DNA from: Bacteroidales bacterium
Lineage (GTDB): Bacteria > Bacteroidota > Bacteroidia > Bacteroidales > P3
DNA: 63,808 bases
Direction: 5' to 3'
Assembly (NCBI GenBank): GCA_017645585.1
Contig: JAGCOF010000019.1
Coordinates: forward strand, 1 to 63,808
Shown here: positions 2,190 to 63,808 of the stretch, piece by piece
How the letters are laid out: every line of letters starts with the position of its first letter
How positions within the stretch are numbered: position 1 is the stretch's first letter
Made by a program: the position numbers and the translations under genes
Notes under the pieces: model-generated
Seen by the model: only the letters and a program-made list of their open reading frames with translations
Databases searched by the model: none
What the model was told of the DNA's origin: nothing

Positions 2190-2915
2190 TCATGAGCGGT
2201 CGTTTATGAGGTTGAACGCCACAACGGCGTAGAGGGCCGCCGTTTCGGTGCGCAGGCGGCTGGGACCCAAGCTTACCGGTTGGAAACCGCAGGCGAGGGC
2301 CAGCGCTATCTCTTCTTCGGAGAAATCGCCCTCGGGCCCTATCAGCACCACGACGTCCTTGCCGGGCTTGAGGGCGGCAGCCAGGGGGGTGCGGGGTTTG
2401 TCGGCCTCGCAATGGGCGATGAACTTTAGTTGAGAGTTAAGAGTTGAGAGTTGAGAGTTAAGCCAATCTGATAGTTTGACGGTGGGATTGATTTTGGGCA
2501 GCACGGTGTGGAGGCTCTGCTTCATGGCGCTGACGGCCAACTTCTCCAGGCGGTCGGTCTTGAGGAACGAGCGCTCCGAGTGGTCGCACTGCAGCAGCGT
2601 AATCTCGCCCACCCCAATCTCCACGGCTTTCTCCACCAGCCACTCCATACGCGACGGGTTCTTGGTGGGAGCGACAGCCAAATGTAGAGTGGAAAGCGGA
2701 AAGTGGAAAGTGGAAAGTGTTTCTGCCACGTCCACACTGCAGGCGCGGTCATCGGCATCCACTATGTTGCAAAGATAGAGGTTTCCGCGCCCGTCGGTGA
2801 CGTTCAGCTCGTCGCCCTCGCGCATGCGCAGCACACGCACCGCGTGACGGCTCTCCTCGGGGTCGAGGGTGCAGTAGGCGTTGGGGGTGATATCGGGGTT
2901 GTAGAAGAGCTGCAT
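2190..2915 (-). CDS. rsmE: 16S rRNA (uracil(1498)-N3)-methyltransferase RsmE
   Basis: A 241-residue SPOUT-class methyltransferase that methylates U1498 of 16S rRNA. It has an N-terminal PUA-like part (residues 1-65, with ESRHAVRVLRMREGDEL), the SAM-binding trefoil knot motif LIGPEGDFSEEE (191-202) and the C-terminal LGPSRLRTETAAL (216-228). Two segments are foreign to the family: residues 67-79 (STFHFPLSTLH) and 152-163 (NSQLSTLNSQL), both encoded by 7-bp tandem repeats in frame. They fall where a loop would be expected, before the conserved RMEWLVEKA motif and before the IAHCE strand, so activity is probably kept. It overlaps its neighbours: the start is at the stop of the beta-helix gene, and the stop overlaps the DUF4159 ATG. 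Confidence 0.93.
   Translation of the reverse strand: MQLFYNPDITPNAYCTLDPEESRHAVRVLRMREGDELNVTDGRGNLYLCNIVDADDRACSVDVAETLSTFHFPLSTLHLAVAPTKNPSRMEWLVEKAVEIGVGEITLLQCDHSERSFLKTDRLEKLAVSAMKQSLHTVLPKINPTVKLSDWLNSQLSTLNSQLKFIAHCEADKPRTPLAAALKPGKDVVVLIGPEGDFSEEEIALALACGFQPVSLGPSRLRTETAALYAVVAFNLINDRS
2428..2462 (-). repeat. Period-7 tandem repeat inside rsmE (first)
   Basis: Five degenerate 7-bp units (AGTTGAG or AGTTAAG on the plus strand) lie within rsmE and encode residues 152-163. Because 3 units equal 21 bases, the peptide has a 7-residue period (LNSQLST, LNSQLK). The array keeps the frame open. Confidence 0.85.
2684..2719 (-). repeat. Period-7 tandem repeat inside rsmE (second)
   Basis: Five units of GGAAAGT type (GTAGAGT, GGAAAGC, then three GGAAAGT) encode residues 66-77 of RsmE, again as a 7-residue periodic peptide (LSTFHFP, LSTLHLA). 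The unit differs from that of the other array in the same gene. Confidence 0.85.
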
Positions 2916-4366
2916 TATTCTATGGTATATTTCAGTTCATTGGCGGTCTTGAACTTGCGCGACGAGAGGCGCAGCGGCACCTCCACTTTGTCTTTGCCGT
3001 TGGGGCGCACCATCTTGAGGCCATACACCCCGACCTCGTTGATGTGTCCAAACTCGCGCTGCAACTCCTTGAGGGTGCCCGTGGGGTCAAAGAGGTTCAT
3101 ACTTCCCACCGTCCACGGCACCACCACCGTCATGTTGCTGACCGTCAGGTTGGGCCAGCACTTCTCCTTCAGTTCCGGACGTGGGTTGTCGGCGGTGTCG
3201 AGCAGCATGACATTGACCAGCGAATGGTAGCGTGGTGTCAGCTCGAAGGTGCAGCCGCGCATCACGATGTCGAACGGCGTGTAGGCGTTGTAGCTCGAGC
3301 GTATGCGCACGGGGATGCAGTCGATAAAGCGGCACGAGTCGAAGGTAACCGTGCCGTACATCGACGAGAACTGCGTCTGCCGCTGGCGCAGGGTACAGCC
3401 CTTCAGATAGGCATCGCGGCCGTAACAATGGATATCGAAGCGGTTGATGTCACATTCCTCCAACACGGTATGACTGAGGAAATTGGTACCAAACACACCC
3501 CAATTGCCGTCGGCCACCACACGCTCGAAACGTGTGTCATAAAGGGTACTCAAACTGAAGGCATAGCCATAGTTGCGTGTAGCACCATAGCCACTGTAGG
3601 TGCCGTCGACGGTCACATCGCGGAACAGAATATGTGCCGAATTGTTCATCGAGAAAACACCGTCGGCAATCATCTTGCTCTTCGGTGTGGTGACATGCAC
3701 ATCCTCTATCGTCACATTATACATGCCGCTGACATATAGGCAGCCCGTCTTGAACGAGGAGCCCTTTACGCGGTGCATTGTAAGGCCACGAAATACTTTT
3801 GACGCGGTGTCTATATCGTAGTACGATGCCTTCAAACGCGTGGAGTCAGTATTCCACGATGCCACGGGGGCATTAATTCCCCTACCGTCACGCACCACAA
3901 TAATATCGCTTCGGTTGACTCCGCTGGCATAACCCTGACGGAAGGTCCACAGCGTCTCGTCATATAACCTCAGCAAATGGTTTCCCTGTGCCAACTCGGG
4001 CACACTACTGAAGTCAAGACTATCCACCAGCGCCTTGTCCAACTCCAACGGCTGGGCACTCTGGCTGAGGGAGAAAAGGCTGCCGTGCTTGGCGTGATTG
4101 GTCACATAGAGCACCAACCCCTGGAAGTCGGTTTGCTGCCCCAGGGGGATGGACTTCCAATTGGGCGGCAGCTCAATCTCCAGCGTGTCGATGCCGCTAT
4201 AATCCACCTGCAGCCCTCGATAGAGAGCGTCGACATGCGCGTTGTAGAGGGCATAGTAGCGTCCCATGCCGCTGGTGGCCTCGCGCAAACCGTAATCCAA
4301 CGGCGACACCTGGGCGGCGGCGGCAGTCGCAATAGCCATACTCATTATAAACAGAAATCTTTTCAT
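2915..4366 (-). CDS. Secreted right-handed beta-helix protein
   Basis: A 483-residue protein with a clear signal peptide ([19 protein letters not shown]). From about residue 165 the sequence is a ladder of short strands of the kind seen in parallel beta-helix proteins (for example [62 protein letters not shown]). The N-terminal 150 residues are less repetitive. Such folds occur in polysaccharide lyases and adhesins, but no catalytic set was recognised, so no function is assigned. Its ATG overlaps the mnmA stop as ATGA and its stop meets the rsmE start, which suggests one transcript with both. There is no T9SS tail. Confidence 0.7.
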
Positions 4367-5520
4367 ATTATCATTCCCGAAGCGACCACCAGACGGGCGT
4401 CGTTGTCATAGATGGTGGCATACTGCCCTGCGGCGATGCCCTGTATCGGCTCGTCGCTCTCGATCCGCACCAACCCGTCGGGCAGACGGCTGAGGTGGCC
4501 CTGATGGAACTCGGGCGTGTGGCGTATCTTGAACTTCACATCAGCCACTCCGTCGGGCAGTTCGTCCACCAGCTCACCGCTTTCCATCTTCCACTTCCCG
4601 CTCAACAGCCGGAAGCCCATCAGCGTAATCTCCTTGCCGTGAGCCGCCGCAGGGTCGTATCCCTGACTGACATACAGCACGTTCTCCTCGATGTCCTTGC
4701 GCACCACAAACCAAGGGCCGCCGCTGAGGTAGAGCCCCTTGCGCTGCCCGATGGTGTGGAACCAATAGCCCTTGTGCGTCCCCAGCACCTTGCCCGTCTC
4801 GAGCTCCACAATCTTGCCCTCGCGCTCGCCGAGGTAGCGCTTGATGAAGTCGTTGTAGTTGATCTTGCCCAGGAAGCAGATGCCTTGCGAGTCCTTGCGG
4901 TCGGCGCTGGGCAGCTTGGCCTCGTGGGCGATGGCGCGCACCTCGCTCTTCATCAGATGCCCGATGGGGAACATCAGCTTGCTGATCTGGCGATACTCCA
5001 GCTGCGACAGGAAATCCGTCTGGTCCTTCACGGGGTCTTTGGCGGTAGTCAGAAAGATTGTGTGATTGTGCGATTGCGTGATTGCGTGAGTGTTGGACAT
5101 ATCGGCCTTTACACAATAAGGCATTAACGCATTAACACATTCTGTACGGGCGTAGTGTCCCGTAGCGATGCGGTCATACTCCCGGCCGCGCTTGTCGTCG
5201 AAAGCACCGAACTTGATCAGCTTGTTGCACATCACGTCGGGGTTGGGCGTCAAGCCCTTGCGCACGCTCTCGATGGTGTAGCTCACCACATTGTCCCAAT
5301 ACTCCTGGTGCAGGTTCACCTCCTCGAAGCGGCAGCCGTAGTGGCGGGCAATCCATTGCGTAATCTCGATGTCCTCCTCGGCCGGACAGTCGATATAGCC
5401 CTCCTCATCCTCCATCCCGATGCGGATATAGAAGATGTCGGGCGTGATGCCCTGCTCCTTCAGCAAGTGCACCGCCACCGAACTGTCCACGCCTCCCGAT
5501 ACAAGTGCCGCTACGTTCAT
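4363..5520 (-). CDS. mnmA: tRNA-specific 2-thiouridylase MnmA
   Basis: A 385-residue enzyme that installs the 2-thio group on U34 of tRNA-Lys, -Glu and -Gln. The start at 5520 was chosen because [14 protein letters not shown] begins exactly at the ATP-pyrophosphatase P-loop (SGGVDSS, residues 8-14), although the frame is open further upstream. Catalytic cysteines are in NPDVMCNK (C98) and SQGICFLG (C215), and the [10 protein letters not shown] motif is near 254-263. Between GHYARTE (121-127) and [13 protein letters not shown] (161-173) sits an extra segment encoded by two 8-bp-period repeats, and [12 protein letters not shown] (306-317) comes from a 7-bp repeat. Most homologues have a short loop in the first place. 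It probably heads the leftward operon mnmA, beta-helix gene, rsmE, DUF4159 gene. Confidence 0.93.
4573..4606 (-). repeat. Period-7 tandem repeat inside mnmA
   Basis: Degenerate units GCTTTCC, ATCTTCC, ACTTCCC, GCTCAAC on the plus strand encode residues 306-317 of MnmA in the C-terminal domain. The frame is kept. Confidence 0.7.
5056..5142 (-). repeat. Two adjacent period-8 repeats inside mnmA
   Basis: At 5056-5096 the plus strand has 8-bp units of GATTGYGY type (four to five copies). At 5111-5142 it has GCATTAAC units (three copies, the last degenerate). They encode residues about 127-157 of MnmA, giving [13 protein letters not shown] and [11 protein letters not shown]. On the minus strand the first unit (CAATCACG) resembles the CAATAACR units upstream of the gene at 57993. 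Confidence 0.8.
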
Positions 5521-5577: not shown

Positions 5578-5690
5578 CCAGTCACCCAAGTAACTGCGCC
5601 GATCCGAACGCGGCGCCCCATAGTCACCCAAGAGTTACCCAGGAGTTATCCCGAGGGTATCCCGAAGTCACCCCGAGTCAATTCCGTAAT
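5578..5690. repeat. Period-11 intergenic tandem repeat
   Basis: Units of 11 bp such as AGTCACCCAAG, AGTTACCCAGG, AGTTATCCCGA, GGGTATCCCGA and AGTCACCCCGA follow one another, degenerating at both ends. The array lies 60-170 bp upstream of the mnmA start, within its probable 5' leader. Confidence 0.75.
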
Positions 5691-8429: not shown

Positions 8430-9554
8430 CTATTTCTTTAGTATTATCAGGTGTTCTTTCTTGTTTTTCTGCGTGAATGTGGGGTTGAACATCCGCGAGT
8501 GCTCTGCCAAATCGGAGGAAATAACATTGCACACCTCAAGACCCACCTCAGGCATGAAACCGCAAATCACCTCATCAATCTTAATCAATTCCTTTTTGAT
8601 GACACTGTCACCGATGACGATAAACGCCAACCCGCCCTGTTTCATCACACGATACATCTCACGGAAACACAGCATCAGGTCGGCAGTCCATTGGGTGGCG
8701 GGCTTCTTCAGGCTCGAGTATTCGCGCCGCGAACCTATCTCATTGTACTGCGCAAACTTGACGTCAATATCTAGCCAGCGCTTTCTGAACTTGTGATAGA
8801 GATAGTAGTCGTAGGTATTGGCATAGGGCGGCGACGTTATCACCAAGTCGATGCTCCCGTCGGCCAGCATGCTCAGGTTGCGACTGTCGGCATTGTACAG
8901 CGCCAGACTGCCCGTTTTCGACACCGCCTTTGAGTACTCAGCCACGCGGTCCAGATACTCATTGGCGCGGCCCACAAACTGCCGGAACGTAAAGTTGTCG
9001 GGGATATTCTTGTTCCTGGCAGCGAAGCGCGTGTCGCTCTCTTGGTTGGAGACCCTGACAATGATTGACGAGAGGGCTATCTTTAGAAAGTCACGCTCAT
9101 CCTCGTCTCCCACCGTGCCAATGAGATTGAGCAGATGCGTCAGCTCCTCGGCTACATTGTGCTGGAACCAATGCTCCAAGCCCTCTATCTGCTTGACCTC
9201 TATTGCAGGTCGATGTTTATTCCATGTCTCGGCCTCCGACTCCACTTTCGCCATGAACGCCCGCAGGTCACGAATGGCCGATGCCGGCAGCGGCGTTGCC
9301 TTCACCTTCGACAACAGCGTCGACAGCCCGTTGACATCCACACCCACAGCGTCGAACCCCAGCAAGCGCGCCTCCACCAACGTCGTGCCCGAGCCACAGA
9401 ACGGGTCCAGCACGGTCATGCCTGCGCTACCGTATTTTTCCAGAATGACACGCGGCAACTGCGGCGGAAACTTGGCCGGATAGGGATGCAGCGAATGGGT
9501 CAGATAGGTGGTGTCGGCTCCGCTGAAGTCAAAGTCAATGGAGTAGTCGCTCAT
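8430..9554 (-). CDS. DNA methyltransferase, SPPY type (first of two)
   Basis: A 374-residue N4-cytosine/N6-adenine DNA methyltransferase. The N-terminal LTHSLHPYPAKFPPQLP (residues 18-34) is typical of this group. The SAM-binding motif VLDPFCGSGTTLVEA is at 48-62 and the catalytic motif ITSPPYANTYDY at 239-250. The long insert between them, about 175 residues, probably holds the target-recognition region (alpha-class order). TSPPY rather than DPPY favours N4-cytosine, but this is not decisive. Its ATG overlaps the stop of the second methyltransferase by 4 bases and it lies directly before the putative endonuclease gene. It ends in TAG. Confidence 0.9.
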   Translation of the reverse strand: MSDYSIDFDFSGADTTYLTHSLHPYPAKFPPQLPRVILEKYGSAGMTVLDPFCGSGTTLVEARLLGFDAVGVDVNGLSTLLSKVKATPLPASAIRDLRAFMAKVESEAETWNKHRPAIEVKQIEGLEHWFQHNVAEELTHLLNLIGTVGDEDERDFLKIALSSIIVRVSNQESDTRFAARNKNIPDNFTFRQFVGRANEYLDRVAEYSKAVSKTGSLALYNADSRNLSMLADGSIDLVITSPPYANTYDYYLYHKFRKRWLDIDVKFAQYNEIGSRREYSSLKKPATQWTADLMLCFREMYRVMKQGGLAFIVIGDSVIKKELIKIDEVICGFMPEVGLEVCNVISSDLAEHSRMFNPTFTQKNKKEHLIILKK

Positions 9555-10534
9555 TTCGCCCTCTTCCTAAATACAACGATAAACGAACAGTTCTGATTAG
9601 TATAGAGTACGCTCGGGTAGCCCAGCAGCACCAAACGCCGCTGTCCGGTCTGGTCCCAGACAATCAAGTCGTGGTACATCCAACCCACCTCCTCGCCGGC
9701 ACGCGCCAGGTCAGAGTGGAAAGGCACATAGGGCACCTTGTTCTTGGTGTCGCGATAGTCCTTCACCACCCAGGCCGAATAGCCGCCCGGCCTGGTAATC
9801 TTCAGATTGTCGGCCAGCACACCCTTGATCTGCTCCAGAAACTCGGGGTACGGCAGGTTGCCGAAATCGTTCTCCGCCTCGCTGTACTGCTTCACCGTGC
9901 TGTTGTTCTCATAGCGTATGACCGACGTCTTGTGCGTCGTCGAGCGGTCCTTCAGCGAGCGCTGGATAAAGTTCGCATAGGGCGGCGAGGTGACCGTGAG
10001 CTGTATCTTTTCCTCCCTGACATGCTGCAACATATTGCGACAGTCGTCGTTCACCACCTTGTAGTACATCTCCGACGAGAACAGCCCCACCTCCTCGTTG
10101 ATCCAATCGTTGGCGATGGAGGCAAACTTCGGGTTGAGCTCGATACCAATGGCGTGACGCTTCAGATTGTGCGCGGCGATGGCGGTCGAGCCGATGCCCA
10201 TAAACGGGTCAAACACCGCGTCGCCCTCCTTCGAGTACATCTTGATCAGTCGCTCAGCCAACTTAACAGGGAACACGGCCCCGTGCTCCTTTTGGTGCTC
10301 GTTGCGCGGAGAGGAAAGGTCGTTCCACACAGGGTTGAACAGGTCCTCCTCCGTGATGACATTCTTCGACAGCAGGGCCCACTCCGTCGGTGTCAGGTCG
10401 TTAAACCCGACTTTTTTCTTCTCCGCTTCCCTCACCACCTCGCGTCTCGTCACATACGCCAGCACAGGCTCCTCCACCTTGGTGCTGAAGGTTTCTTCAT
10501 TAGTATTATATGGGACAGGCTTTTTCCTTGGCAT
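9551..10534 (-). CDS. DNA methyltransferase, SPPY type (second of two)
   Basis: A 327-residue DNA methyltransferase and first gene of the operon. The SAM motif AVFDPFMGIGSTAIAAHNL is at 106-124 and the catalytic VTSPPYANFIQRSLKDRS at 181-198. The spacing between them is only about 70 residues, so target recognition probably lies in the C-terminal half, unlike its neighbour. The N-terminal 85 residues include FNDLTPTEWALLSKNVITEE and NPVWNDLSSPRNEHQKEHGA, seen in SPPY enzymes of type II systems. Two non-identical methyltransferases beside one endonuclease suggest an asymmetric recognition site with one enzyme per strand. The promoter is at 10555-10584. Confidence 0.9.
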   Translation of the reverse strand: MPRKKPVPYNTNEETFSTKVEEPVLAYVTRREVVREAEKKKVGFNDLTPTEWALLSKNVITEEDLFNPVWNDLSSPRNEHQKEHGAVFPVKLAERLIKMYSKEGDAVFDPFMGIGSTAIAAHNLKRHAIGIELNPKFASIANDWINEEVGLFSSEMYYKVVNDDCRNMLQHVREEKIQLTVTSPPYANFIQRSLKDRSTTHKTSVIRYENNSTVKQYSEAENDFGNLPYPEFLEQIKGVLADNLKITRPGGYSAWVVKDYRDTKNKVPYVPFHSDLARAGEEVGWMYHDLIVWDQTGQRRLVLLGYPSVLYTNQNCSFIVVFRKRAK

Positions 10535-10554
10535 CGTATATAAAATTGAAAATG

Positions 10555-10584
10555 CAAAGATACGGATTTTTTTTCAAACAGCAA
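10555..10584 (-). promoter_or_regulatory. Promoter of the restriction-modification operon
   Basis: On the minus strand TATCTTTG (10555-10562) is preceded by TTG (10582-10584) at exactly 19 bases, a full match to the Bacteroidota consensus. It is about 20 bp before the first methyltransferase ATG, so the 5' leader is very short. Confidence 0.8.
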
Positions 10585-10685
10585 AAACAATTTCTCCCGC
10601 TTCGCGTAATTCATTTATCCAAAAGATAGATTTATAGATTATGCCGCAGGCGGGAGATAAATTAGGTCGTGCACGATATAAATGG

Positions 10686-10713
10686 GTAGTCGGTGGTCGG
10701 TAGTCGGTGGTCA
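10686..10713. repeat. Period-7 intergenic repeat
   Basis: Four 7-bp units alternate GTAGTCG and GTGGTCG (last copy GTGGTCA). The complement matches the ACCAC/CGACTAC units of the array upstream of mraZ at 27188-27243, so the same unit occurs at two distant places. Confidence 0.75.
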
Positions 10714-10847
10714 GTTCGACCGCCAACCTACCCCCAGAAAGCCTCTTTGTCGGATAAAAACAGGCAAAGGCAGTAATCAACGCCACTAACAATCATATTA
10801 TAAGCTAATTAAATACCATTTTACCATCCATATCACTACTGACCCCC

Positions 10848-10925
10848 TCCGACTCTGGTCCGACTCATGTCCGAGTCAAGTCCGACTGATGTCCGACCGC
10901 AGTCGGACAAAACACGGTGTTGATA
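10848..10925. repeat. Period-11 intergenic repeat
   Basis: Units of 11 bp with the core TCCGACTNATG repeat and then switch into inverted units (TCGGACAAAAC, ACGGTGTTGAT). Nearly the same array occurs between ftsW and murG (18413-18512), including the same switch to inverted units. Confidence 0.75.
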
Positions 10926-10960
10926 CGGTGCAGATACGGATATATCGTGCACGATATAAA

Positions 10961-11881
10961 TTACTTTTTGCGGCTGTTGGTGAGGACCACGAGGGTGACG
11001 GCGGCGAGGATAAGAAGGATGCCGACCAGGAGGCGCGGGCCGAAGGGCTCGCCGAAGAGAAAGATGCCTATCAGCACCGCTGTGGTGGGCTCGAGGGCGC
11101 CGAGGATGGCGGTGGGGGTGCTGCCCAGGTACTTGGCGGCATAAACCATCATGACCAACGCCATGATGGCAGGCACCACCGCCAACCAACCGACCCACAG
11201 CCAGGCACGCGGCGTGGGCGGCAGCATGAGCGGCTGGCCGCTCAACAGGGCAAAGAGGGCCATGCCGACGGCACAGCAGAAGAGGACAAAGAAGTTGATT
11301 TTGAAGCTCGACATCTGCAGCGGGCTTTTGTCGACCACGATGATATAGAGCGCGTAGGTGAGCGCCGACACGAGCACCAGCACCACGCCCAGCATGCTCA
11401 GCGTGCCGCCCGTGTCACCCCAATAGAGCAACAACACGCCGGCCAGCGAGAGCAACAGCGCCACCACCATGCCCCACCGCAGCCGCTCGCGGAAGAAGAG
11501 GACCATGATGGCGGCCGTCATGACGGGATAGGTGAAGAGGATAGTAGAGGCGACGCCGGCGGGCATGTAGTGGAAGCTGAGGTAGAGGGTCAGCGAGGAG
11601 CCTATGAAGAGCAAGCCGAGGGTGAGAAGGGTGCGCAGCTCGCGCCCCGTGACCCGCAGGCTCTCCCGATGGCTGAGGGCCTTCACAGCCATCACAGCGG
11701 CGATGATGACCCATGCCAAGCCGAAGCGATAAAACAACACCGAGGGGGTATTCATCCCCTCGGCGTATAGGTTGAGGGCTCCCAGCGGATTGGTGCCGTA
11801 GCAGACGGCGGCACCAATGGCGCAAAGGATGCCAACTACAAGTTTCGAGTTGTGAGTTTTAAGGTTTGAGTTAAGTTTCAA
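10961..11881 (-). CDS. EamA/DMT-family transporter
   Basis: A 306-residue inner-membrane protein with ten predicted helices arranged as two EamA repeats (about residues 17-150 and 165-300). Typical motifs are AAVCYGTNPLG in the first repeat and AAKYLGSTPTAILGALEPTTAVLIG in the second. The family exports small metabolites such as amino acids or nucleosides; the substrate is not predictable here. The first 15 residues (MKLNSNLKTHNSKLV) are coded by the period-7 repeat at 11838-11911, so the native start may have been further in, at VGILCAIGAAV. Located after ftsZ on the same strand, probably as a separate unit. Confidence 0.85.
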   Translation of the reverse strand: MKLNSNLKTHNSKLVVGILCAIGAAVCYGTNPLGALNLYAEGMNTPSVLFYRFGLAWVIIAAVMAVKALSHRESLRVTGRELRTLLTLGLLFIGSSLTLYLSFHYMPAGVASTILFTYPVMTAAIMVLFFRERLRWGMVVALLLSLAGVLLLYWGDTGGTLSMLGVVLVLVSALTYALYIIVVDKSPLQMSSFKINFFVLFCCAVGMALFALLSGQPLMLPPTPRAWLWVGWLAVVPAIMALVMMVYAAKYLGSTPTAILGALEPTTAVLIGIFLFGEPFGPRLLVGILLILAAVTLVVLTNSRKK

Positions 11882-18376: not shown

Positions 18377-18412
18377 ATTCTTATCTTGTTTTTTCTTTCA
18401 TTTAACCCTGTC

Positions 18413-18512
18413 ATCTCCGACTCTCCTCCGACCCATCTCCGAGTTTTGTCCGACTGATGTCCGACAAAAGACGGTGATGAGTCGGACACTTCACGGTGTT
18501 AAGTCGGACATA
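18413..18512. repeat. Period-11 repeat between ftsW and murG
   Basis: Units TCCGACTCTCC, TCCGACCCATC, TCCGAGTTTTG, TCCGACTGATG, TCCGACAAAAG, then inverted units ACGGTGATGAG, TCGGACACTTC, ACGGTGTTAAG, TCGGACATATT. It runs into the last codons of ftsW (stop at 18491). The same succession occurs at 10848-10925. The inverted halves could form a hairpin in the mRNA. Confidence 0.8.
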
Positions 18513-22918: not shown

Positions 22919-23932
22919 TTATCTAAGCGTCAGTTCCACCCGTGTGCCCTGTTTGGCGTTGGTGCCAGCCTTGGGCAGTTGCGAAAACACTTTGCCGTAA
23001 CCGCTCACCGTGGCGCTATAACCCATCGTGTGCAACAACTCTACAGCATCCTTGGCGGTCATACCGTAGCAGTTGGGTATACGGCCGTGGGCAGGCTCAT
23101 AGGGATAGTATTGCGCTGTCGTGCTGTCCGTAGCCTCTTGAAACACCACCCAGCGTGCCGCCGAGTCGGCCGACAGGAAGGGCTGCTTCAACAACTTGTA
23201 CAGCCGACGCATCTCGCTCTGGTCACCCCGCGCCACCACAGGACGCTGCTGCGCCATCGCGCTGTCCTCTTCCAAACGAGGCCACACCGATTTCACGGCT
23301 CCGTTGCTCAGCTTCTTGTCCACCGCCACCACACAGTCGCTGATGGCCTTGAATACCAATGCCGCCTGACGACCATAGTAGGGGATGTCCTGCAGCACCA
23401 CAAGGCATGTGTAGCGCGGATTTTCCGAGGGGAAGAAGCCGCAGAAGGAGGCATTGTAGCGCTTCACATTGGCATAACTGTGCACAGCGGTACCCGTCTT
23501 GCCAGCTATACCATAAGTTGTATTCTTTATATTATTACCTGTGCCATGCTCCACCACACCCTCGAGCATTGTCTTCATCATGCGGGCGCTCTCACGGCTG
23601 CAGATTTGAGGATTGAGGACAATCGGTTTGTTCTCTATCAACCGCTCGCCGTCCATGACACCCTTGCAGAACTGCGGCTTCACCATACGTCCCTCGGCAC
23701 CCAGCGCATTGTAGAAGGTAACCAGCTGCAGAGCCGACACACGGGTGGAGTAGCCATAACAGAAGTTGAGGAAGTCGCGGTTCGAGGCATGCAAGTTATT
23801 GATACGCGATTTATATTCGCGCGCTTTCACATCGGGATGCAGATTGTCATAGGGGAACATGCGCTCCACCAGATGACGCAGCGTATCGCGACGCTCGCTG
23901 TAAAGACGCCAACCCAGGTCACTCATACCCAC
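22919..23932 (-). CDS. ftsI: FtsI (PBP3) C-terminal part, after in-frame TAG
   Basis: The downstream 337 codons of the septal transpeptidase gene, in exactly the same frame as the upstream part and separated from it only by TAG plus the codons for S-S-N. It carries the KTGT motif (GIAGKTGTAV), the rest of the transpeptidase domain and a C-terminal PASTA domain (about residues 265-337, IPNCYGMTAKDAVELLHTMGYSATVSGYG). The listed start is a GTG inside the conserved VGMSDLGW. A protein begun there would lack the active-site serine and the membrane anchor. It makes sense only as part of a 751-codon ftsI. Confidence 0.9.
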   Translation of the reverse strand: MGMSDLGWRLYSERRDTLRHLVERMFPYDNLHPDVKAREYKSRINNLHASNRDFLNFCYGYSTRVSALQLVTFYNALGAEGRMVKPQFCKGVMDGERLIENKPIVLNPQICSRESARMMKTMLEGVVEHGTGNNIKNTTYGIAGKTGTAVHSYANVKRYNASFCGFFPSENPRYTCLVVLQDIPYYGRQAALVFKAISDCVVAVDKKLSNGAVKSVWPRLEEDSAMAQQRPVVARGDQSEMRRLYKLLKQPFLSADSAARWVVFQEATDSTTAQYYPYEPAHGRIPNCYGMTAKDAVELLHTMGYSATVSGYGKVFSQLPKAGTNAKQGTRVELTLR

Positions 23933-23941
23933 ATTGGACGA

Positions 23942-25174
23942 CTACTCAATCACCTCGCGCACATTCAGCGAATCGCGACCGGCCAATGTGTGGTCATCCT
24001 TGATTTCACCATATTTGCCGCCAAAGTTCATGTAGCCGCACTTGAGCTGCATGGCGGTGTCTATCTTAATGTCGGGGTCGTTGAGCATGGCGGTGAGGAT
24101 AACCGTCTTGAAGGTGGAACCGGGCTCGTAGACGTCGCTGACGGCCACATTCCTGTCGCGCACCTCTAGATAGTCGTGCAAAGCCGTATCCACCGCCAAG
24201 TTGACACAAGCCAGCACATAACCCGTCTGCATCTCCATCAATATGGCGCACCCCGCCGATCCGCCATATTGCCGCAATGCTTTACGAAGCGAACTCTCGG
24301 CAATGTCCTGGTAGCGGGTGTCGATGGTACTCACAATGCTGCGGCCATCAATCTTGTTGCGCAGCACCACTGTGTCGATGCGGTCTTCGTCCGTCCGTTG
24401 CGGTACCTCCTTGGTGCCGTGCGGCACGTCGGGCAGCCAAATTCCTTTGGTCAAACGGCGACAATTGAAGAGGCCGTCCTGACCTCGCAGTATGCTGTCA
24501 TAGGCACCCTCCAACCCCGTGTAGGTCATACTCTCGCGCTGGTTCTGGAAGCCTATGGTGTTCTTGGCCATATTGCCGTAGATGTGGGCACGCTCCTGAT
24601 GGATGACACTCTGCCCGTCGACCTGCCTCACCACTCCGCGGCGCCAACCCGGCATAGCGGCAACCTGCATCCACACCGAGTAGGGCACATGGCGCTCCAC
24701 CAGGAAGCAGCGACGCGGTTTTTCCTTGGCACGCTCGGTGGCGATGCGGTCGCGGTAGTATTCGACCGAACGGTAGGGCAGCGCCTCATGCAGCATCCGA
24801 CAGACGCTGTCGAGGTAAAGTGCAAAGCAGGTGTCGGTAATCGGGCCGCTCTCCACAGGAACCCCTTTCCTATCATATTTCACATGCCCGAACTCGTCAT
24901 ACTCCACTTCGTTGTAGAGGTCCAGATAGAGGTCGCACTCCGTCACCGTGGTGGCCAATATCTTGCCGTCGCTGGAGTAGATGTTGCCACGCCGTGCGGG
25001 GTCGGTGCGCAGATCGGCCTCACGCTTCTTGGCACGCTCGCGCCACTCGTCGCCGTGCACCCATTGTATATTGATAATGCCGGCCACGATGGCCACTCCC
25101 ACTCCCAACGTCAGGAGCAGATAGAGCGCCGTCATGCCGCGCGTCATCCGTTTGTCTTTCTTTTCTTCTTTCAT
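23942..25174 (-). CDS. ftsI: FtsI (PBP3) N-terminal part, ends at in-frame TAG
   Basis: The first 410 codons of ftsI: a cytoplasmic start (MKEEKKDKRMTRG), one membrane anchor (15-36), the pedestal domain with RRGNIYSSDGKILA, and the transpeptidase domain up to the catalytic serine motif GSTFK (352-356) and NVREVIE. The next codon, at 23942-23944, is TAG, directly followed by TCG TCC AAT (S-S-N, the second catalytic motif). Family members have Q or K there, so one base change (CAG or AAG to TAG) explains it. TAG serves as the normal stop in fmt, ribH and others here, so a recoded genome is unlikely. Truncation would abolish an essential function. Confidence 0.92.
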   Translation of the reverse strand: MKEEKKDKRMTRGMTALYLLLTLGVGVAIVAGIINIQWVHGDEWRERAKKREADLRTDPARRGNIYSSDGKILATTVTECDLYLDLYNEVEYDEFGHVKYDRKGVPVESGPITDTCFALYLDSVCRMLHEALPYRSVEYYRDRIATERAKEKPRRCFLVERHVPYSVWMQVAAMPGWRRGVVRQVDGQSVIHQERAHIYGNMAKNTIGFQNQRESMTYTGLEGAYDSILRGQDGLFNCRRLTKGIWLPDVPHGTKEVPQRTDEDRIDTVVLRNKIDGRSIVSTIDTRYQDIAESSLRKALRQYGGSAGCAILMEMQTGYVLACVNLAVDTALHDYLEVRDRNVAVSDVYEPGSTFKTVILTAMLNDPDIKIDTAMQLKCGYMNFGGKYGEIKDDHTLAGRDSLNVREVIE

Positions 25175-25666: not shown

Positions 25667-26566
25667 CACTCGCAGCATGGCGCTGCGGGCGCGATTGTTC
25701 TCGGCCACCTCCTCGTCGGTGGCGGTGCATTTGCGCACCATACGCATCGGCGACAACGGGTTGCCGTAGAAATCCTTCTCCACCACACCCTCGAAGTTGC
25801 CGCTGCGCATATAGTTCTTCACCAAGCGGTCCTCCAGCGAATGGTAGCTGATCACCACCAGACGGCCGCCCTCCACAAGCAGTTCGCCTGCCTGCTGCAG
25901 CATAGCCTTCAGAGCCTCCAGCTCGCCGTTCACCTCGATGCGCAGCGCCTGGAAAAGCATGGCCAGATACTTGTTCTCCATACCTCGCGGCAGGTGTTTT
26001 GCCACCGCCTCTTTGAGGTCCGAGGTGGTAGCTATCTCTCTCCGCTCACCGTTCTCCGTTCTCCACTTCACGATGGCGCGAGCCATCTGGCGCGCATTAG
26101 GCAACTCGCCATACAGACGCAGCAACCGCGCCAAATCCTCCTCCGAACTGTTGTTCACCAGGTCGGCGCCCGTCACAGGGCTGCGACGATCCATACGAAG
26201 ATCCAACGCCCCGTCGAAGCGGGTCGAAAAGCCGCGTTCGGCCACATCGAACTGATGGCTGCTCACCCCCAGGTCGGCCAACACTCCGTCCACACGGCGC
26301 ACACCGTGCAGACGCAGGAAAGCCTTCAAGTGACTGAAATTCTCGCCGATAAGCGTAAAGCGCGGGTCGTCGATGGCATTGGCGCGAGCGTCCTCGTCCT
26401 GATCGAAGGCATAGAGATGTCCCTCGGGGCTCAACGCAGAAAGGATGGCTCGCGAATGACCGCCGCCGCCGAAGGTCACGTCAACATACGTTCCCTCGGG
26501 GCGAATGGCAAGGCCTTCAACAGCCTCGCTAAGCATCACAGGTGTATGGTACTCATTGGTCATCAT
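25634..26566 (-). CDS. rsmH: 16S rRNA (cytosine(1402)-N4)-methyltransferase RsmH
   Basis: A 310-residue SAM enzyme (formerly MraW) that methylates C1402 of 16S rRNA. It has YHTPVMLSEAVEGL at the N-terminus, the SAM motif DVTFGGGGHSRAIL, the FDQDEDA acidic loop and the VISYHSLEDRLVKNYMR motif. Residues about 165-177 (WRTENGERREIATT) are coded by a 7-bp repeat within the small inserted domain; other members have a short IVxxR-type helix region there. The ATG lies inside the end of mraZ (14-bp overlap). Confidence 0.95.
   Translation of the reverse strand: MMTNEYHTPVMLSEAVEGLAIRPEGTYVDVTFGGGGHSRAILSALSPEGHLYAFDQDEDARANAIDDPRFTLIGENFSHLKAFLRLHGVRRVDGVLADLGVSSHQFDVAERGFSTRFDGALDLRMDRRSPVTGADLVNNSSEEDLARLLRLYGELPNARQMARAIVKWRTENGERREIATTSDLKEAVAKHLPRGMENKYLAMLFQALRIEVNGELEALKAMLQQAGELLVEGGRLVVISYHSLEDRLVKNYMRSGNFEGVVEKDFYGNPLSPMRMVRKCTATDEEVAENNRARSAMLRVAEKVEMKNEK
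26033..26070 (-). repeat. Period-7 repeat inside rsmH
   Basis: Units GCTCACC, GTTCTCC, GTTCTCC, ACTTCAC on the plus strand lie in frame within rsmH and encode VKWRTENGERRE. Two units are identical, the others differ by two or three bases. Confidence 0.7.
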
Positions 26567-27014: not shown

Positions 27015-27394
27015 TTTTACCTACTATTTTTCAGGTTGTAAAATTACGAAGAAAATTCCAATTTCTGCCTAAAAATTCCTTTTTTTGTTTTTATTTAACA
27101 TTTTTTGTTGTTCATAACCCTTAACGCAACATTTGAAAAAAAGTTTCATCCAACGCAAACTTTTTTTGTAACAAACAGAAACACAACCCACCTCCAACCA
27201 CCGACCACCGACTACCGGCCACCAACTACCAACCACCAACCTCGGTTGAAAACTTTTTCAGCCTCACCTCCGACCTCCATCCATACCCTATGACAAAAAC
27301 TCGAAGAGAAAAATCAATCATCAATTAAGGTCATTTTTATAGTTTTAAACAATAAAAAGAGCCTCTGCCCGTTATTTATTGAGTAATAAATGAT
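27015..27394. other. Divergent intergenic region, mraZ and surface protein
   Basis: This 380-bp spacer separates the leftward dcw cluster from the rightward surface-protein gene. It should hold both promoters. It is AT-rich on both sides and has a period-7 repeat in the middle (27188-27243). No full TTG-N19-TAnnTTTG match was found for either gene. No gene is seen. Confidence 0.6.
27188..27243. repeat. Period-7 repeat upstream of mraZ
   Basis: Seven or eight 7-bp units of type CAACCAC, CGACCAC, CGACTAC, CGGCCAC, CAACTAC. The complement of the units matches those at 10686-10713. It lies about 170 bp upstream of mraZ and 150 bp upstream of the surface-protein gene. Confidence 0.8.
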
Positions 27395-30149: not shown

Positions 30150-30290
30150 GGGGAGTGAAAGAGGAGTGAGTGAGGAGTGAGAGGGGAGTGAGAGGGACAA
30201 TACCTTTTGTTGCAATTTTTATCAACGAAAAGTATCGTCCCTCTCACTCCTCATTCACTCCCCGTTCACTCCCCCCTCCCCTCACTCCCT
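30150..30290 (+). repeat. Inverted pair of period-11 repeats, likely terminator
   Basis: The left array has units GGGAGTGAAAG, AGGAGTGAGTG, AGGAGTGAGAG, GGGAGTGAGAG. The right array is its complement (CTCTCACTCCT, CATTCACTCCC, CGTTCACTCCC). The inner arms 30183-30212 and 30223-30252 pair at about 27 of 30 positions around a 10-base loop, and pairing continues outward less perfectly. The resulting hairpin, just after the surface-protein stop, could end transcription although it lacks a clean T-run. Confidence 0.75.
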
Positions 30291-30408: not shown

Positions 30409-30492
30409 TTGTTGTCCCATTGTTGTCCCATTGTTGTCCCATTTTGAATGGGACAACAATGGGACAACAAGCGTACAATAATAGGACAATAG
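30409..30492 (+). repeat. Period-11 repeat forming a perfect 23-bp hairpin
   Basis: Three units of GTTGTCCCATT are followed by inverted units AATGGGACAAC (two copies) and decayed copies (AAGCGTACAAT, AATAGGACAAT). Positions 30420-30442 and 30448-30470 are perfectly complementary over 23 bases around the loop TTTGA. In the mRNA leader this would be an extremely stable stem. Confidence 0.9.
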
Positions 30493-50887: not shown

Positions 50888-50930
50888 GTTCTAGACATTC
50901 TAGATATTCTAGACATTCTAGATTATCTGG
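50886..50930. repeat. Period-9 repeat after yicC
   Basis: Four units alternate TTCTAGACA and TTCTAGATA (the last degenerating into TTCTAGATT, ATCTGGACA). It begins at the yicC stop and ends just before the terminator. Confidence 0.85.
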
Positions 50931-54021: not shown

Positions 54022-54137
54022 AATTTTTTGTTTTTTTAACTATCACGGAGGGGGCACCACAAATTCCGCAAGGGCCCGAGGAAGAATTGCAGACGCCCCG
54101 CTGACAGCCGTTTAAACGACCTGTGTACTACCACCGT

Positions 54138-54197
54138 GGTAGTCCTTGGGTAGTCCTTGGGTAGTCCTTGGGTAGTCCTTGGTAGGTCGTTGGTGGG
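54138..54197. repeat. Period-11 repeat
   Basis: Four nearly perfect 11-bp units GTAGTCCTTGG, then decayed copies (TAGGTCGTTGG, TGGGG). The preceding ACCACCGTGGT is a short palindrome. Confidence 0.85.
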
Positions 54198-54242
54198 GGG
54201 GGCATGCTACCCTAATGAAAGAAAACGCCTAACGGCGTACGA

Positions 54243-54577
54243 GCCCCGCAGGGGCGACAGTATTTAGCCGTGGGCGTCAGCCCACGGTACTACGGCCCGA
54301 CAGCACCGGAGCCCCGCAGGGGCGACACAAGGTTGATTATCTTTGTGTCGCCCCTACGGGGCTAAAAAAACACACATACGCCTTGTCTCCGTGGGCTGAC
54401 GCCCACGGCTAATGACTATCGTCCCCTACGGGGACTTACGGGAAAACTCTGTTTCGTTTCCGTGGGCTGGCGCCCACGGCTAATGGCTATCGTCCCCTAC
54501 GGGGACTTACGGGAAAACTCTGTTTCGTTTCCGTGGGCTGGCGCCCACGGCTAATGGCTATCATCCCCTACGGGGAC
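54243..54577. repeat. REP-like palindromic array
   Basis: Two palindromes recur. P1 (GCCCCGCAGGGGC or GTCCCCTACGGGGAC) is at 54243-54255, 54311-54323, 54350-54362, 54421-54435, 54492-54506 and, as CCCCTACGGGG, near 54563-54577. P2 (CCGTGGGCTGACGCCCACGG and variants) is at 54268-54287, 54389-54408, 54460-54479 and 54531-54550. From 54420 onward P1 and P2 are joined in 71-bp tandem units. This is the build of REP/BIME elements moved by RAYT (Y1-type) transposases in other bacteria. No transposase is in the window. Confidence 0.85.
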
Positions 54578-54652
54578 TTATGAGACGCCTCCTTACATTT
54601 TTCCACCCCCGCACACAATATAATTATTGTTTTGCTGTTATTCTACCTGACT

Positions 54653-56185
54653 ATGAACAGACTGAAATATTGCATCCTATGGCTGGCCGTGGTGGCCGTG
54701 GGCTGCGGCGGCCACAAGGCGGCAGCACCGTCGGACAACCGCTACCAGCGCCCCCCCATCCGCGAGGTGAGCGAAGAGCAGCTGAAGCTGGACAATCGCC
54801 TCGTCGACGCCCTGACGCTGCAGGAGACCGGCCACAGCCAGGAAGCCCTGGAGGCCTATGCCCGCCTGACGGCCGACGCACCGCAGCTGGCGGCGGCCTG
54901 GTATGGCCAGGCTCAACTGCTGCTGCAACGCGGCTGGAGCGACAGCGCACTGCACTGCGCCCAACGCGCCGCCGCCCTCGACGCCAACAACGAATGGTAC
55001 CAGCTGGCACTCTCCAACGCCTGCATCGCCGCGGGCGACCTGCCGGCAGCCGTCGACGCCCTCAACCGCGTGGAGAAACGCCGCGGCATCACCGAAACCA
55101 TCTCGCTCCAGAAGCAACGCCTCTGGGAAGCCGCCGGACGGCCCGACAAGGCCATGAAGGAAATCGAGGCCCTGGCCGACGCCATGCCCCAAGAGAAGCG
55201 CTACAACGCCATCATGGCCGAGATGTACATGGGCCGCAAGAACTACAAGAAAGCCAAGCAATACTACGACCGCGTGCTGGCTGCTGACCCACAGGACAAC
55301 TACATCCACATACAGCTGGCCGAATACTACAAGAAAACGGGCCACGCCGCCGAAGCCGACAGCGAGCTGGTGCGGGCCTTCGAGAACCCCGCCCTCGACG
55401 GGCGCACGAAACTGCAGCTGCTGGCCTCGTTCTACACCGACGAGGAGTTCTACGGCAGCCACAGCAAGACCGCCTTCCGCCTGATGGAGCAAGCCATGAA
55501 GCAGTGCGACGACCCGTCGGAGTTCGCCCTCTACTACGGCGACGTGCTGATGCGTCAGCGCAAATACGCCGAAGCGGCGCAGCAGCTCGAAGTGGCCATC
55601 CGTCGCGACAGCTCACGTTACGAGGTGTGGGAGGGCCTGCTGATATGCCTCAGCGAGGTGCCCGAACGCGAGGAGGACCTCACCGCCTATGCCCGCCGCG
55701 CCGAGCGCTTGTTCCCCGTGCACACCCTGCCGCACTACATCGTGGGGCTCTACGAACTGCGCCACGAACGCTACACCGAGGCCCTCGTGCCGCTCGAGAA
55801 AGCCGCCCAATGGGGCTTCAGCAAGGGCTACCTCGAGGCCGAGACCCGCAGCCTGATGGCCGAGTGCTACTACCGCTCGGGGCAGTACGACAAGGCCTGG
55901 CGCGCCTTCGAGCAGTATATGGCCCTGCGGCCCGACGACATGCTGATGCTCAACAACTACGCCTACTATCTGGCGTTGCAGGGCGTCGAGCTGGAGAAGG
56001 CGCTCGCCATGAGCCGCCGCACCATCGAGGCACAGCCCGACGAACCCAACAGCCTCGACACCTACGCCTGGATACTCCACCTCCTGGGCCGCGACGCCGA
56101 AGCCCTGCCCTACATCAAGAAAGCCGTCAAACTCAATCCCACCAGCGACACCCTGAAGCAGCACCTGAAAGAGATTGAAAAATGA
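54653..56185 (+). CDS. TPR lipoprotein
   Basis: About 510 residues. The start at 54653 (MNRLKYCILWLAVVAVGCGG) gives a lipoprotein signal with lipobox VAVGC; an upstream in-frame ATG at 54632 is less likely. The rest is a chain of tetratricopeptide repeats (for example ALTLQETGHSQEALEAYARL, MYMGRKNYKKAKQYYDRVLA, ECYYRSGQYDKAWRAFEQYM, AWILHLLGRDAEALPYIKKA), a scaffold for protein-protein contacts at the periplasmic side of the outer membrane. In other Bacteroidota a TPR gene precedes a DUF4292 gene, as here; the two overlap as ATGA. Confidence 0.88.
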   Translation: MNRLKYCILWLAVVAVGCGGHKAAAPSDNRYQRPPIREVSEEQLKLDNRLVDALTLQETGHSQEALEAYARLTADAPQLAAAWYGQAQLLLQRGWSDSALHCAQRAAALDANNEWYQLALSNACIAAGDLPAAVDALNRVEKRRGITETISLQKQRLWEAAGRPDKAMKEIEALADAMPQEKRYNAIMAEMYMGRKNYKKAKQYYDRVLAADPQDNYIHIQLAEYYKKTGHAAEADSELVRAFENPALDGRTKLQLLASFYTDEEFYGSHSKTAFRLMEQAMKQCDDPSEFALYYGDVLMRQRKYAEAAQQLEVAIRRDSSRYEVWEGLLICLSEVPEREEDLTAYARRAERLFPVHTLPHYIVGLYELRHERYTEALVPLEKAAQWGFSKGYLEAETRSLMAECYYRSGQYDKAWRAFEQYMALRPDDMLMLNNYAYYLALQGVELEKALAMSRRTIEAQPDEPNSLDTYAWILHLLGRDAEALPYIKKAVKLNPTSDTLKQHLKEIEK

Positions 56186-56276
56186 AAAAGGAAAATGGAA
56201 AAAGGAAAAATATGAATAGGGTGCAGTCTACACTGCGCCAGCCATCTTTCATCTTTCATCTTTCATCTTTCATCTT
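56180..56276 (+). repeat. Period-7 repeats forming the N-terminus of DUF4292
   Basis: At 56180-56215 units AAATGAA, AAAGGAA, AATGGAA, AAAGGAA, AAATATG span the start codon. At 56243-56276 five units of CATCTTT follow. Together they code residues 1-12 (KKENGKRKN) and 21-32 (PSFIFHLSSFIL) of the lipoprotein. Confidence 0.85.
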
Positions 56277-57495: not shown

Positions 57496-57942
57496 GTGAG
57501 CATCTTCGACAACCCCGACGAATACTACATGCAGCAGGCCCTGCGCGAAGCCCGCGCCGCCGCCGCGGAGGACGAGGTGCCCATCGGCGCCGTCATCGTG
57601 GCCGACGACCGCATCATTGCCCGCACCCACAACCAGACCGAGCGGCTGCACGACGTGACAGCCCACGCCGAAATGCTGGCCTTCACCGCCGCCAGCGAGG
57701 CCCTCGGCGCCAAATACCTCAACGACTGCACCCTCTACGTCACCGTCGAGCCCTGCCCCATGTGTGCCGGCGCGGCGGGTTGGACCCAGGTGGGCCGCAT
57801 CGTCTATGGCGCCCGCGACCCCAAGCGCGGCTACAGCACGGTGAGTGACCGACTGCTGCACCCCAAGACCGAAGTCACCGCCGGCGTGCTCGAAGAGGAG
57901 TGCGCCGCCCTGATGAAAGACTTCTTCAAGAAGAAACGATAA
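57496..57942 (+). CDS. tadA: tRNA adenosine(34) deaminase TadA
   Basis: A 148-residue zinc deaminase that makes inosine at the wobble position of tRNA-Arg(ACG). It has the zinc/proton-shuttle motif THAEM (HAE, 57-59) and PCPMCAGA (86-93), plus VPIGAVIVADDRIIARTHNQTE. The start is GTG, 7 bp after the previous stop. Bacteroidota also have other cytidine-deaminase-like paralogues, but the motif spacing fits TadA. Confidence 0.9.
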   Translation: MSIFDNPDEYYMQQALREARAAAAEDEVPIGAVIVADDRIIARTHNQTERLHDVTAHAEMLAFTAASEALGAKYLNDCTLYVTVEPCPMCAGAAGWTQVGRIVYGARDPKRGYSTVSDRLLHPKTEVTAGVLEEECAALMKDFFKKKR

Positions 57943-57944
57943 CG

Positions 57945-57992
57945 CAATAACACAATAACGCAATAACACGATAACGCAATAACACAATCATC
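57945..57992. repeat. Period-8 repeat before the nucleotidyltransferase
   Basis: Units CAATAACG and CAATAACA alternate for five or six copies (one CGATAACG), ending CAATCATC directly at the ATG. It fills the entire gap between tadA and the next gene, where a ribosome-binding site would lie. Confidence 0.9.
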
Positions 57993-58883: not shown

Positions 58884-58903
58884 TACCCCCGCCTGACGGC
58901 GGA

Positions 58904-59385: not shown

Positions 59386-59460
59386 ACAAGATCTCCAAGA
59401 TTAAACAGGCCCGACCATGACAGCGACAGACAATTTCCAAGATCTCCAAGATTTCGCGAA
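59386..59460. repeat. Period-9 repeats downstream of the GxxExxY gene
   Basis: Two arrays of AAGATCTCC / AAGATTAAA type units: 59386-59412 in the gap, and 59424-59460 within codons 4-13 of the next gene, where they encode NFQDLQDFAK. Confidence 0.75.
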
Positions 59461-60733: not shown

Positions 60734-60764
60734 AAGGGGTCCGGCGGTGCAGGCCGGACCCCTT
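60734..60764 (-). terminator. Terminator of the nrdJ gene
   Basis: AAGGGGTCCGGC and GCCGGACCCCTT form a 12-bp stem around a 6-7 base loop. On the minus strand it is followed by CAATTTTT, which serves nrdJ. The plus strand has no T-run, so its use by the convergent methyltransferase gene is doubtful. Confidence 0.8.
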
Positions 60765-60792
60765 CGGGTGAATATGTTGTGCTTGCTGAATT

Positions 60793-63378: not shown

Positions 63379-63808
63379 GGCTCGATTATTTTATTTATCG
63401 TTTTTGTTTACAATGAATTATCGTGGAAGGACCGCAGTCCGTTTCGATTGCTAAATTAGACAGAAAAACAGAAACGGCGGCAAATAGTTTTCAACAAAAA
63501 ATCCACCGCCGGCGCCATTTCCCGACAGGCACAGCGCTTGCCAAGTGGAAAAAGCCTTTCACCTCTCACCTTTCACCTCTCACCTTTCACCTCTCACCTC
63601 TCACCTTTCACCTCTCACCTTTCACCTCTCACCTTTCACCTCTCACCTTTCACCTCTCACCTTTCACCTCTCACCTCTCACCTCTCACCTTTCACCTCTC
63701 ACCTTTCACCTTTCACCTCTCACCTCTCACCTTTCACCTCTCACCTTTCACCTCTCACCTTTCACCTCTCACCTCTCACCTTTCACCTCTCACCTTTCAC
63801 CTCTCACC
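63379..63808. other. Upstream region of nrdJ and terminal repeat array
   Basis: The first 175 bp are the nrdJ leader, holding a partial -7-like element (TAATTTAG on the minus strand) and a GC-rich GGCGCCGGCGG patch but no confident promoter. The rest is the period-7 array described separately. No gene is seen. Confidence 0.6.
63556..63808. repeat. Long period-7 array, two unit types, to window end
   Basis: About 36 contiguous 7-bp units, every one either CACCTCT or CACCTTT, without any other variant visible. It reaches the end of the window, so its full length is unknown. It lies upstream of nrdJ. Confidence 0.95.

Follow-up and report, generated by a model that had tools for sequence, protein, structure and literature searches.

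A contig of 63,808 nucleotides from an uncultured Bacteroidales bacterium of the rumen (contig C20 of genome G000), analysed whole and called the window here, is rich in short, degenerate tandem repeats. Those of period 11 probably form the core of small dispersed elements, akin to miniature inverted-repeat transposable elements (MITEs) or to REPINs (hairpin-forming pairs of repetitive extragenic palindromic, or REP, sequences), that carry helically phased iterons predicted to bind protein. An initial annotation had treated all the repeats as one multi-period family, which an active process writes or spreads. The 7-bp and 11-bp arrays are instead two different things, distinct in placement, internal degeneracy and anatomy. 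Spread does describe the 11-bp class; the writing of independent units in place, as by an enzyme, is not supported. Arrays of period 11 occupy the interior of dispersed elements, and in several families their degeneracy follows unit columns, as it does in binding sites.

Abundance, periods and placement of the repeats

The genome that holds the window (G000; 1.93 Mb in 62 contigs, 83% complete) was sampled over 759,141 bases, 39% of its length, made up of the window and 40 further stretches, with a 2,951-base stretch that reads N. The best named matches of the window's MurC are uncultured Bacteroidales metagenome-assembled genomes (MAGs) from rumen and gut, obtained in several projects. Relatives were sampled over 392 kb (G012), 346 kb (G015) and 400 kb (the more distant G016); two others, G008 and G009, are 88% and 95% complete.

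Arrays were called with Tandem Repeats Finder, overlapping rows being merged for the window counts. At scores of at least 30, 40 and 50, all 63,808 bases of the window held 71, 29 and 18 arrays, while 20 dinucleotide shuffles of the first 63,540 bases gave means of 8.1, 0.9 and 0.2 and maxima of 13, 3 and 2. The G000 sample yielded 187 arrays at a score of at least 50 and its order-3 Markov control two; across genomes such controls produced between 1 and 3. The repeats are thus genuine and greatly exceed chance expectation, and we consider a single assembly artefact an unlikely source because relatives from several metagenome projects also carry arrays.

The period histogram is not flat. In G000, 41 arrays have period 7 (and 18 period 14) and 72 have period 11 (and 5 period 22), with the neighbouring periods near empty (one array at 10, three at 12, one at 13). 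Periods 7 and 11 are likewise occupied in the relatives, by 39 and 40 arrays in G012, 18 and 12 in G015, and 0 and 7 in G016. Four fixed, sharp period classes had been proposed; 7 and 11 hold, far above shuffles, and 8 and 9 are rejected as sharp classes, their counts being minor (six arrays at 8, three at 16, four at 9, six at 18). Placement separates the two real classes: by a simple in-house gene caller, 69 of 74 11-bp arrays in G000 and 41 of 41 in G012 are non-coding, and 20 of 47 and 21 of 40 7-bp arrays, respectively, are coding.

Anatomy and boundaries of the 11-bp elements

When grouped within three mismatches, the 11-bp units of G000 form families at many loci: GTCGGACTTGA (16 arrays), TTCAACGGTAC (14), AATGGGACAAC (11) and TGGTAGGTTCT (10). 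G012 has TTACGGTAGTA (20 arrays) and CTCCGTAACAA (10), and G015 has GGTAGGTCTAT (7). The families are nearly genome-specific: a TTACGSTAGTA pattern has 129 matches in G012 and 0 in 40 other genomes, and the TCGGA pattern of G000 has 122 matches there, 22 across five relatives combined and 0 in 35. Flanks are unrelated between element copies, as judged by eye, which fits mobility. In the gap 3′ of the EamA gene of the window the layout is:

10943..10956, no strand: end palindrome 1 (TATCGTGCACGATA), from a pattern match
10898..10942, minus strand: left arm of the dyad, in which CCG half-sites recur at 11-bp intervals, plus the centre at about 10899 (alignment of 19 G000 elements; CCG offsets in 20 dyads)
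10848..10897, minus strand: right arm, 4.5 units of GTCGGACTTGA with CGG every 11 bp, 3′ of EamA (repeat finder; family of 16 arrays in the G000 sample)
10685..10712, minus strand: 7/14-bp array (GACTACC/GACCACC) within the EamA-gap element (repeat finder; inside the aligned element)
10665..10678, no strand: end palindrome 2 (GGTCGTGCACGATA), from a pattern match

The palindromes at 10665-10678 and 10943-10956 thus enclose both the 11-bp array (10848-10897) and the 7-bp array (10685-10712).

All 20 TCGGA-family dyads of G000 carry CGG at 4, 15, 26, 37 and 48 bp to the right of the centre, and to its left CCG stands at -4 in 20, at -15 in 17, at -26 in 15 and at -37 in 10 of them, where the search pattern itself forced +4, +15 and -4 and copies failing it went uncounted. 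A single 11-bp register runs through the centre and both arms. Mismatches in the GTCGGACTTGA family fall at 0-4% in the TCGGA columns, 15-26% in four to five other columns and 5% in the last (chi-square p 2e-24, a value inflated because the test treats related copies as independent). Column heterogeneity was also seen for AATGGG (p 0.0005), TGGTAG (p 0.02) and GGTAGG of G015 (p 7.5e-10); for TTACGG of G012 it comes down to one shared variant column, and the TTCAAC family of G000 lacks it (p 0.31). With p ranging from 2e-24 to 0.31, the binding-site-like column pattern is strong in some families, not all.

Inverted 8-mer partners within 90 bp accompany 40 of 69 11-bp arrays in G000, 29 of 41 in G012, 4 of 13 in G015, 6 of 10 in G008, 10 of 14 in G023 and 2 of 9 in G016. 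A reversed-flank control gave 3, 2, 1, 0, 1 and 0, and a swapped-flank control 15%, 18%, 15%, 9%, 26% and 9%, in the same order; for 7-bp arrays the figures are 7 of 27 in G000 (control 3) and 6 of 19 in G012 (control 0). One TTACGGTAGTA element of G012 is a near-perfect palindrome. The 19 aligned G000 elements share parts of a tail. Four of six distinct G015 loci share a different left segment with TCGTACCTTTGC, a putative promoter-like motif.

Cooperative protein binding on one face would fit the spacing of one helical turn, the dyad, and cores that are kept while spacers vary more freely. Each half-site would bind one subunit of an oligomeric DNA-binding protein, all on the same face of the helix. 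This protein may be an enzyme that mobilizes the elements in trans, in the manner of MITEs or REPINs, or it may belong to the host.

Some families have palindromic ends. A 10-mer enrichment test near 11-bp arrays returned TCGTGCACGA in G000, with 29 near sites and one far. Of the non-coding TCGYGCRCGA sites, 42 of 43 in the G000 sample and 11 of 11 in G012 have an 11-bp array (score at least 40) no more than 250 bp away. Genome-wide, the end-palindrome pattern has 93 forward and 90 reverse matches in G000 (2 and 1 for the reversed pattern) and 16 and 20 in G012, with at most 4, both strands combined, in each of 59 other genomes. Paired ends surround 19 G000 elements, 17 of them TCGGA dyads whose ends are separated by 233 to 308 bp (by 265-308 in all but one) and two AATGGGACAAC arrays (387 and 388 bp), and five G012 elements (246 to 268 bp). 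The elements are therefore multi-copy, dispersed, non-coding and short, their 19 G000 and five G012 end pairs spanning 233-388 bp.

Such palindromes might alternatively serve as RNA, acting as terminators or as long hairpins in transcripts. The G012 element folds far below shuffles (z -18, as single-stranded DNA), the window element reaches z -3.8 as RNA (1 of 200 shuffles as low), and in locus L150, as in L151 less markedly, inspection by eye shows an EamA-gap array leading into a hairpin with T after it. Array density in G012 is alike in convergent (9 in 6.3 kb) and divergent (11 in 10.6 kb) gaps. In G000, by contrast, divergent gaps are preferred, with 31 arrays in 21 kb and only 2 in the 7 kb of convergent gaps, and the spacers of its main family are non-complementary between arms. 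No terminator-like site occurs at 10500-11050, where chance alone predicts just 0.7, and the window 11-bp arrays have no Rfam match (the window returned two tRNAs and three Acido-Lenti-1 matches). Terminators as a general function in G000 are unsupported, given the divergent-gap preference and the lack of such a site at 10500-11050. The case for an RNA role is weaker in G000, less clearly so in G012, and we regard it as improbable overall.

Turnover of the elements among related genomes

Two gaps are reused by arrays across relatives. Among near relatives, 12 of 15 have an array of period 11, 22 or 33 in the gap 3′ of EamA, as does 1 of 14 farther relatives, and the gap 5′ of IMPDH holds an array in 9 of 13 near and 3 of 16 farther relatives, "near" being set by us at protein identities of at least 70% (EamA) and at least 87.5% (IMPDH). 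Units at these gaps differ between most genomes. Control flanks, 330-nt stretches that may be partly coding, had arrays in 0 of 15 near and 0 of 14 farther relatives (EamA 5′), 1 of 13 and 0 of 16 (IMPDH 3′), 0 of 10 and 0 of 19 (rsmE 3′), and 0 of 10 and 1 of 19 (rsmE 5′). The FtsW-MurG spacer has an 11-bp array at 6 of 30 loci (gaps of 37-146 nt), the other 24 gaps measuring -17 to 78 nt.

Closer pairs show how the arrays change. In the sisters G009 and G022, 78% identical at the site, the IMPDH-gap element aligns almost gap-free over about 100 columns; every right-arm unit has changed its core, CGG reading AGG in four units and GGG in the fifth, and the innermost left unit mirrors the change. 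At three sister-pair gaps the arrays resemble each other more closely than does the intergenic DNA flanking them on one side or both. The initial annotation had proposed checking whether arrays appear and vanish between close strains. Between G008 and G023, about 90% identical in DNA, both genomes have an 11-bp array at 4 of 12 orthologous gaps and neither has one at the other 8; one of the four has a wholly different unit and another a T-rich, low-complexity unit. Outside these gaps, G008 has a single unit at one place where the G023 array exceeds it by 44 bp. Under the mobile-element reading, turnover of families at persistent gaps would come from new copies replacing old ones, together with conversion between palindrome arms and units.

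Mutation alone could also shape such sites, slippage and template switching at palindromes making and homogenizing 7-, 8- and 11-bp arrays wherever they are tolerated, with neither protein nor mobility. The G023 length difference is exactly 4 × 11 bp, L304 contains a 33-bp (3 × 11) higher-order repeat, G012 palindromes carry mirrored substitutions, and mismatches of 7-bp arrays in G000 are even along the unit. An 8-bp inverted intergenic pair (L281:1460-1560 in G008, L290:4020-4124 in G023) has kept place and period and changed the unit in both arms (GTAGATAA against AAGAAGTT). Against this account stand the recurrence of the same families at many loci in unrelated flanks with near genome-wide exclusivity, the conservation of core columns beside variable spacers in several families, and the end palindromes; we think it quite unlikely.

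A non-mobile host network is a further, unlikely alternative, in which iterons across the chromosome serve a protein of the nucleoid, of partition or of regulation, its specificity drifting and the sites following. The strict helical phase of the arrays, the persistence of sites with new units and the concerted, mirrored change of core at the G009/G022 gap would fit such a network. G009, however, retains TCGGA copies (13 matches), and the array at its EamA gap is of TACC type, so there has been no genome-wide core switch; the near identity of copies in G012 also suggests that they spread recently. More speculatively, and with a small chance of being right, chromosomal iterons may be genus-wide, with dozens of dyad arrays per genome and a candidate oligomeric protein bound once per turn, specificity and cores co-evolving into species dialects at partly shared gaps. 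If core turnover at persistent gaps is truly this fast, it would allow the joint change of sites and protein to be studied in bacteria.

Returning to mobile elements as the preferred reading, several observations weigh against it, in addition to the inflated chi-square, the uniform TTCAAC family and the possibly coding control flanks. Just 17 of 69 non-coding 11-bp arrays in G000 and 5 of 41 in G012 lie between two palindromes, and end palindromes are seen for two G000 families and one G012 family. TCGYGCRCGA has no site near arrays in G015 (one site, away from them), G008 or G023, and no site in G016; the 10-mer test found no end palindrome in G015. By eye, the 19 aligned G000 elements show no target-site duplication (TSD), palindromic ends blurring the boundary, and no clean empty site was found. 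Base rates of arrays in gaps of 200-399 nt are 27 of 50 (G000), 15 of 41 (G012), 2 of 28 (G015), 2 of 12 (G008), 2 of 10 (G023) and 2 of 33 (G016), and because they reach 27 of 50, part of the gap reuse is expected. For pairs among G000, G012, G015 and G016 (0 to 10 orthologous gaps each), no gap is occupied by an array on both sides of the comparison.

The analysis identified neither a transposase or recombinase nor a binding protein. The Y1 transposase domain PF01797 has no match in the array-bearing G000, G008 and G009, and has matches in G012, G015 and G023; a REP-associated tyrosine transposase (RAYT) therefore does not seem required as mover, G000 being incomplete. As for an autonomous element, no neighbouring ends lie 0.42-5 kb apart within the sampled 759 kb, and genome-wide there are none among the matches listed (up to contig C40; some end variants missed). 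Ten flanking genes chosen from 60 candidates looked housekeeping-like or of unknown kind in a scan that included no search aimed at parM or parR. Separately, three exact 11-bp patterns matched 3, 0 and 0 stretches in viral contigs; contigs L329, L330 and L331, viral by label of their collection only, have arrays of period 11 with between 2.9 and 7.9 units.

The 7-bp class, other window features and known systems

A degenerate heptamer, TCMMCTT, is common to the 7-bp units. With TCAACTT, TCCACTT and TCACCTT as references, picked after viewing the units, 27 of 47 units in G000, 25 of 40 in G012 and 9 of 18 in G015 differ by no more than one mismatch, where letter-shuffled units gave means of 7.1, 4.7 and 2.1 and maxima of 15, 10 and 6; G008 (3 of 7) and G023 (2 of 6) do not exceed their shuffled maxima of 4. 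The statement that unit sequence differs from array to array thus needs narrowing, both for these 27 of 47 units and for the multi-locus 11-bp families. Mismatches are spread evenly over the unit in G000, where four overlapping sets gave p between 0.06 and 0.65, and uneven in two G012 sets (p 0.02 and 7e-6), so evenness is not universal.

Arrays within genes encode peptides such as LSTFHFPLST or VESGKWKVESGK. At the 13 rsmE loci nearest to that of the window (L109-L121), arrays occupy both variable loops in 6, one loop in 5 (one of period 8) and neither in 2; units differ between loci, and loop length mostly about equals that of array-free relatives. This pattern fits slippage-prone heptamers tolerated in loops. 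On the preferred reading, the 7-bp arrays are a separate, slippage-prone heptamer family of a known kind, a few of which are carried in or beside 11-bp elements; 4 of 27 non-coding arrays in G000 lie within 60 bp of an end palindrome. CACCTYT arrays in G000 (three units plus CACC) lie on the plus strand of their contig at 14 of 15 loci and on the minus strand at 1, and a shorter pattern in the sample gave 12 plus and 2 minus stretches, which is odd given that contig orientation is arbitrary. Repeats sit at several contig ends of this MAG, a point relevant to rumen assemblies.

The window has these further features:

2428..2459, minus strand: 7-bp array in rsmE, second variable loop
2688..2719, minus strand: 7-bp array in rsmE, first variable loop
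5622..5680, no strand: weak degenerate units of 10 to 11 bp (repeat finder)
18412..18442, minus strand: 11-bp array in the ftsW-murG spacer, dyad present, no end palindromes seen (repeat finder, locus comparison)
26039..26064, minus strand: 7-bp array in rsmH (repeat finder)
27186..27241, plus strand: 7-bp array ACCAACC (repeat finder)
30150..30196, plus strand: 11-bp array GGGGAGTGAGA, inverted partner at 30244-30274 (repeat finder, sequence)
30409..30443, minus strand: left arm of a AATGGGACAAC-family palindrome (repeat finder, family grouping)
30447..30489, plus strand: right arm of the same palindrome (repeat finder, family grouping)
50889..50922, plus strand: 9-bp array TTCTAGACA (repeat finder)
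54128..54194, plus strand: TGGTAG-family element, hairpin CTACCACCGTGGTAG followed by 11-bp units
56177..56276, plus strand: two 7-bp arrays (GAAAAAG, CATCTTT) (repeat finder)
57939..57988, plus strand: 8-bp array ATAACACA (repeat finder)
63555..63808, plus strand: long 7-bp array CACCTYT, reaching the contig end

Of the sites named by the initial annotation, Tandem Repeats Finder recovered those at 2428, 2688 (rsmE), 5056 (mnmA, period 8), 10848, 18412, 26039 (rsmH), 27186, 30150, 30409, 50889, 54137, 57939, 58901 and 63555. The array at the EamA start (11883) was recovered but weak, as was one placed at 5578, found at 5622-5648 with 2.5 units. Arrays of 7 bp in murC and mnmA and of 9 bp near 59386 and 60228 were absent even at score 30. 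Elsewhere in the window, ftsI (22919-25174, minus strand) has an in-frame stop within its transpeptidase domain, an assembly error or real, where relatives have intact copies. The RNA family Acido-Lenti-1 (RF01687) matches at 54242-54287, 54389-54436 and 54460-54507, two of these falling in a 71-bp tandem repeat (54388-54580). At 8430-10534 (minus strand), the N6/N4 DNA methylase family has partial matches to both of two adjacent open reading frames.

Short tandemly repeated repetitive (STRR) sequences are mainly intergenic repeats of heterocystous cyanobacteria. They had been named as the closest known case, which fits the 7-bp class and no other; here 20 of 47 7-bp arrays are coding and the relatives are rumen and gut Bacteroidales. 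The Omega repressor, a ribbon-helix-helix protein, binds unspaced 7-bp heptad repeats in a plasmid operator. The 7-bp class resembles that operator in its unspaced repeats. TAACTGA heptamer repeats occur at many loci, including in five Bacteroidetes (PMC4679880). Tandem heptamers at many loci, degenerate in STRRs, are common to both and to the 7-bp class. The consensus here is TCMMCTT, often within genes, and the likeness covers the 7-bp class only.

For the 11-bp class, the parC centromere of plasmid R1 has 11-bp repeats bound by ParR, which needs at least two of them (PMC9426499). Direct 11-bp repeats in helical register, with sequence and specificity varying between families, are common to both, but parC as described there is a single plasmid locus beside parMR, whereas dozens of chromosomal sites occur here. 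In REPINs each arm is a single REP, and a RAYT is believed to mobilize them (PMC3116915). In the terms of that passage, both are miniature, dispersed, extragenic inverted pairs forming hairpins (here 40 of 69 G000 arrays, not all); the arms here consist of several 11-bp units, and the Y1 transposase lacks a match in G000, G008 and G009.

BrickBuilt and 464/PgRS MITEs of Porphyromonas gingivalis contain internal minisatellites of 23-nt or 41-nt repeats, and BrickBuilt has 19 copies in ATCC 33277, terminal inverted repeats like those of IS5-family ISPg elements and a TSD at one site (PMC4596501). In the parts of that report on which we draw, BrickBuilt resembles the present elements in its Bacteroidales host, dispersed intergenic copies, imperfect tandem repeats, and gain or loss of whole units. 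BrickBuilt repeats lie within a leader and tail, which may have a counterpart here: among distinct G015 copies four of six share the left segment, and G000 copies share parts of a tail. The present elements differ in a unit of 11 bp, not 23 nt, arranged as dyad iterons in many families, with palindromic ends in some and no TSD seen. A search of the open-licence literature found no description of such an 11-bp dyad element. BrickBuilt is the nearest described case that we found, followed by REPINs, each as far as the cited passages describe it. Dyad 11-bp iterons with genome-specific dialects set the element apart from BrickBuilt, REPINs and parC, as far as those passages tell, and what began as a vague tandem-repeat pattern now resolves into elements defined by half-sites and a dyad, some families having ends as well.

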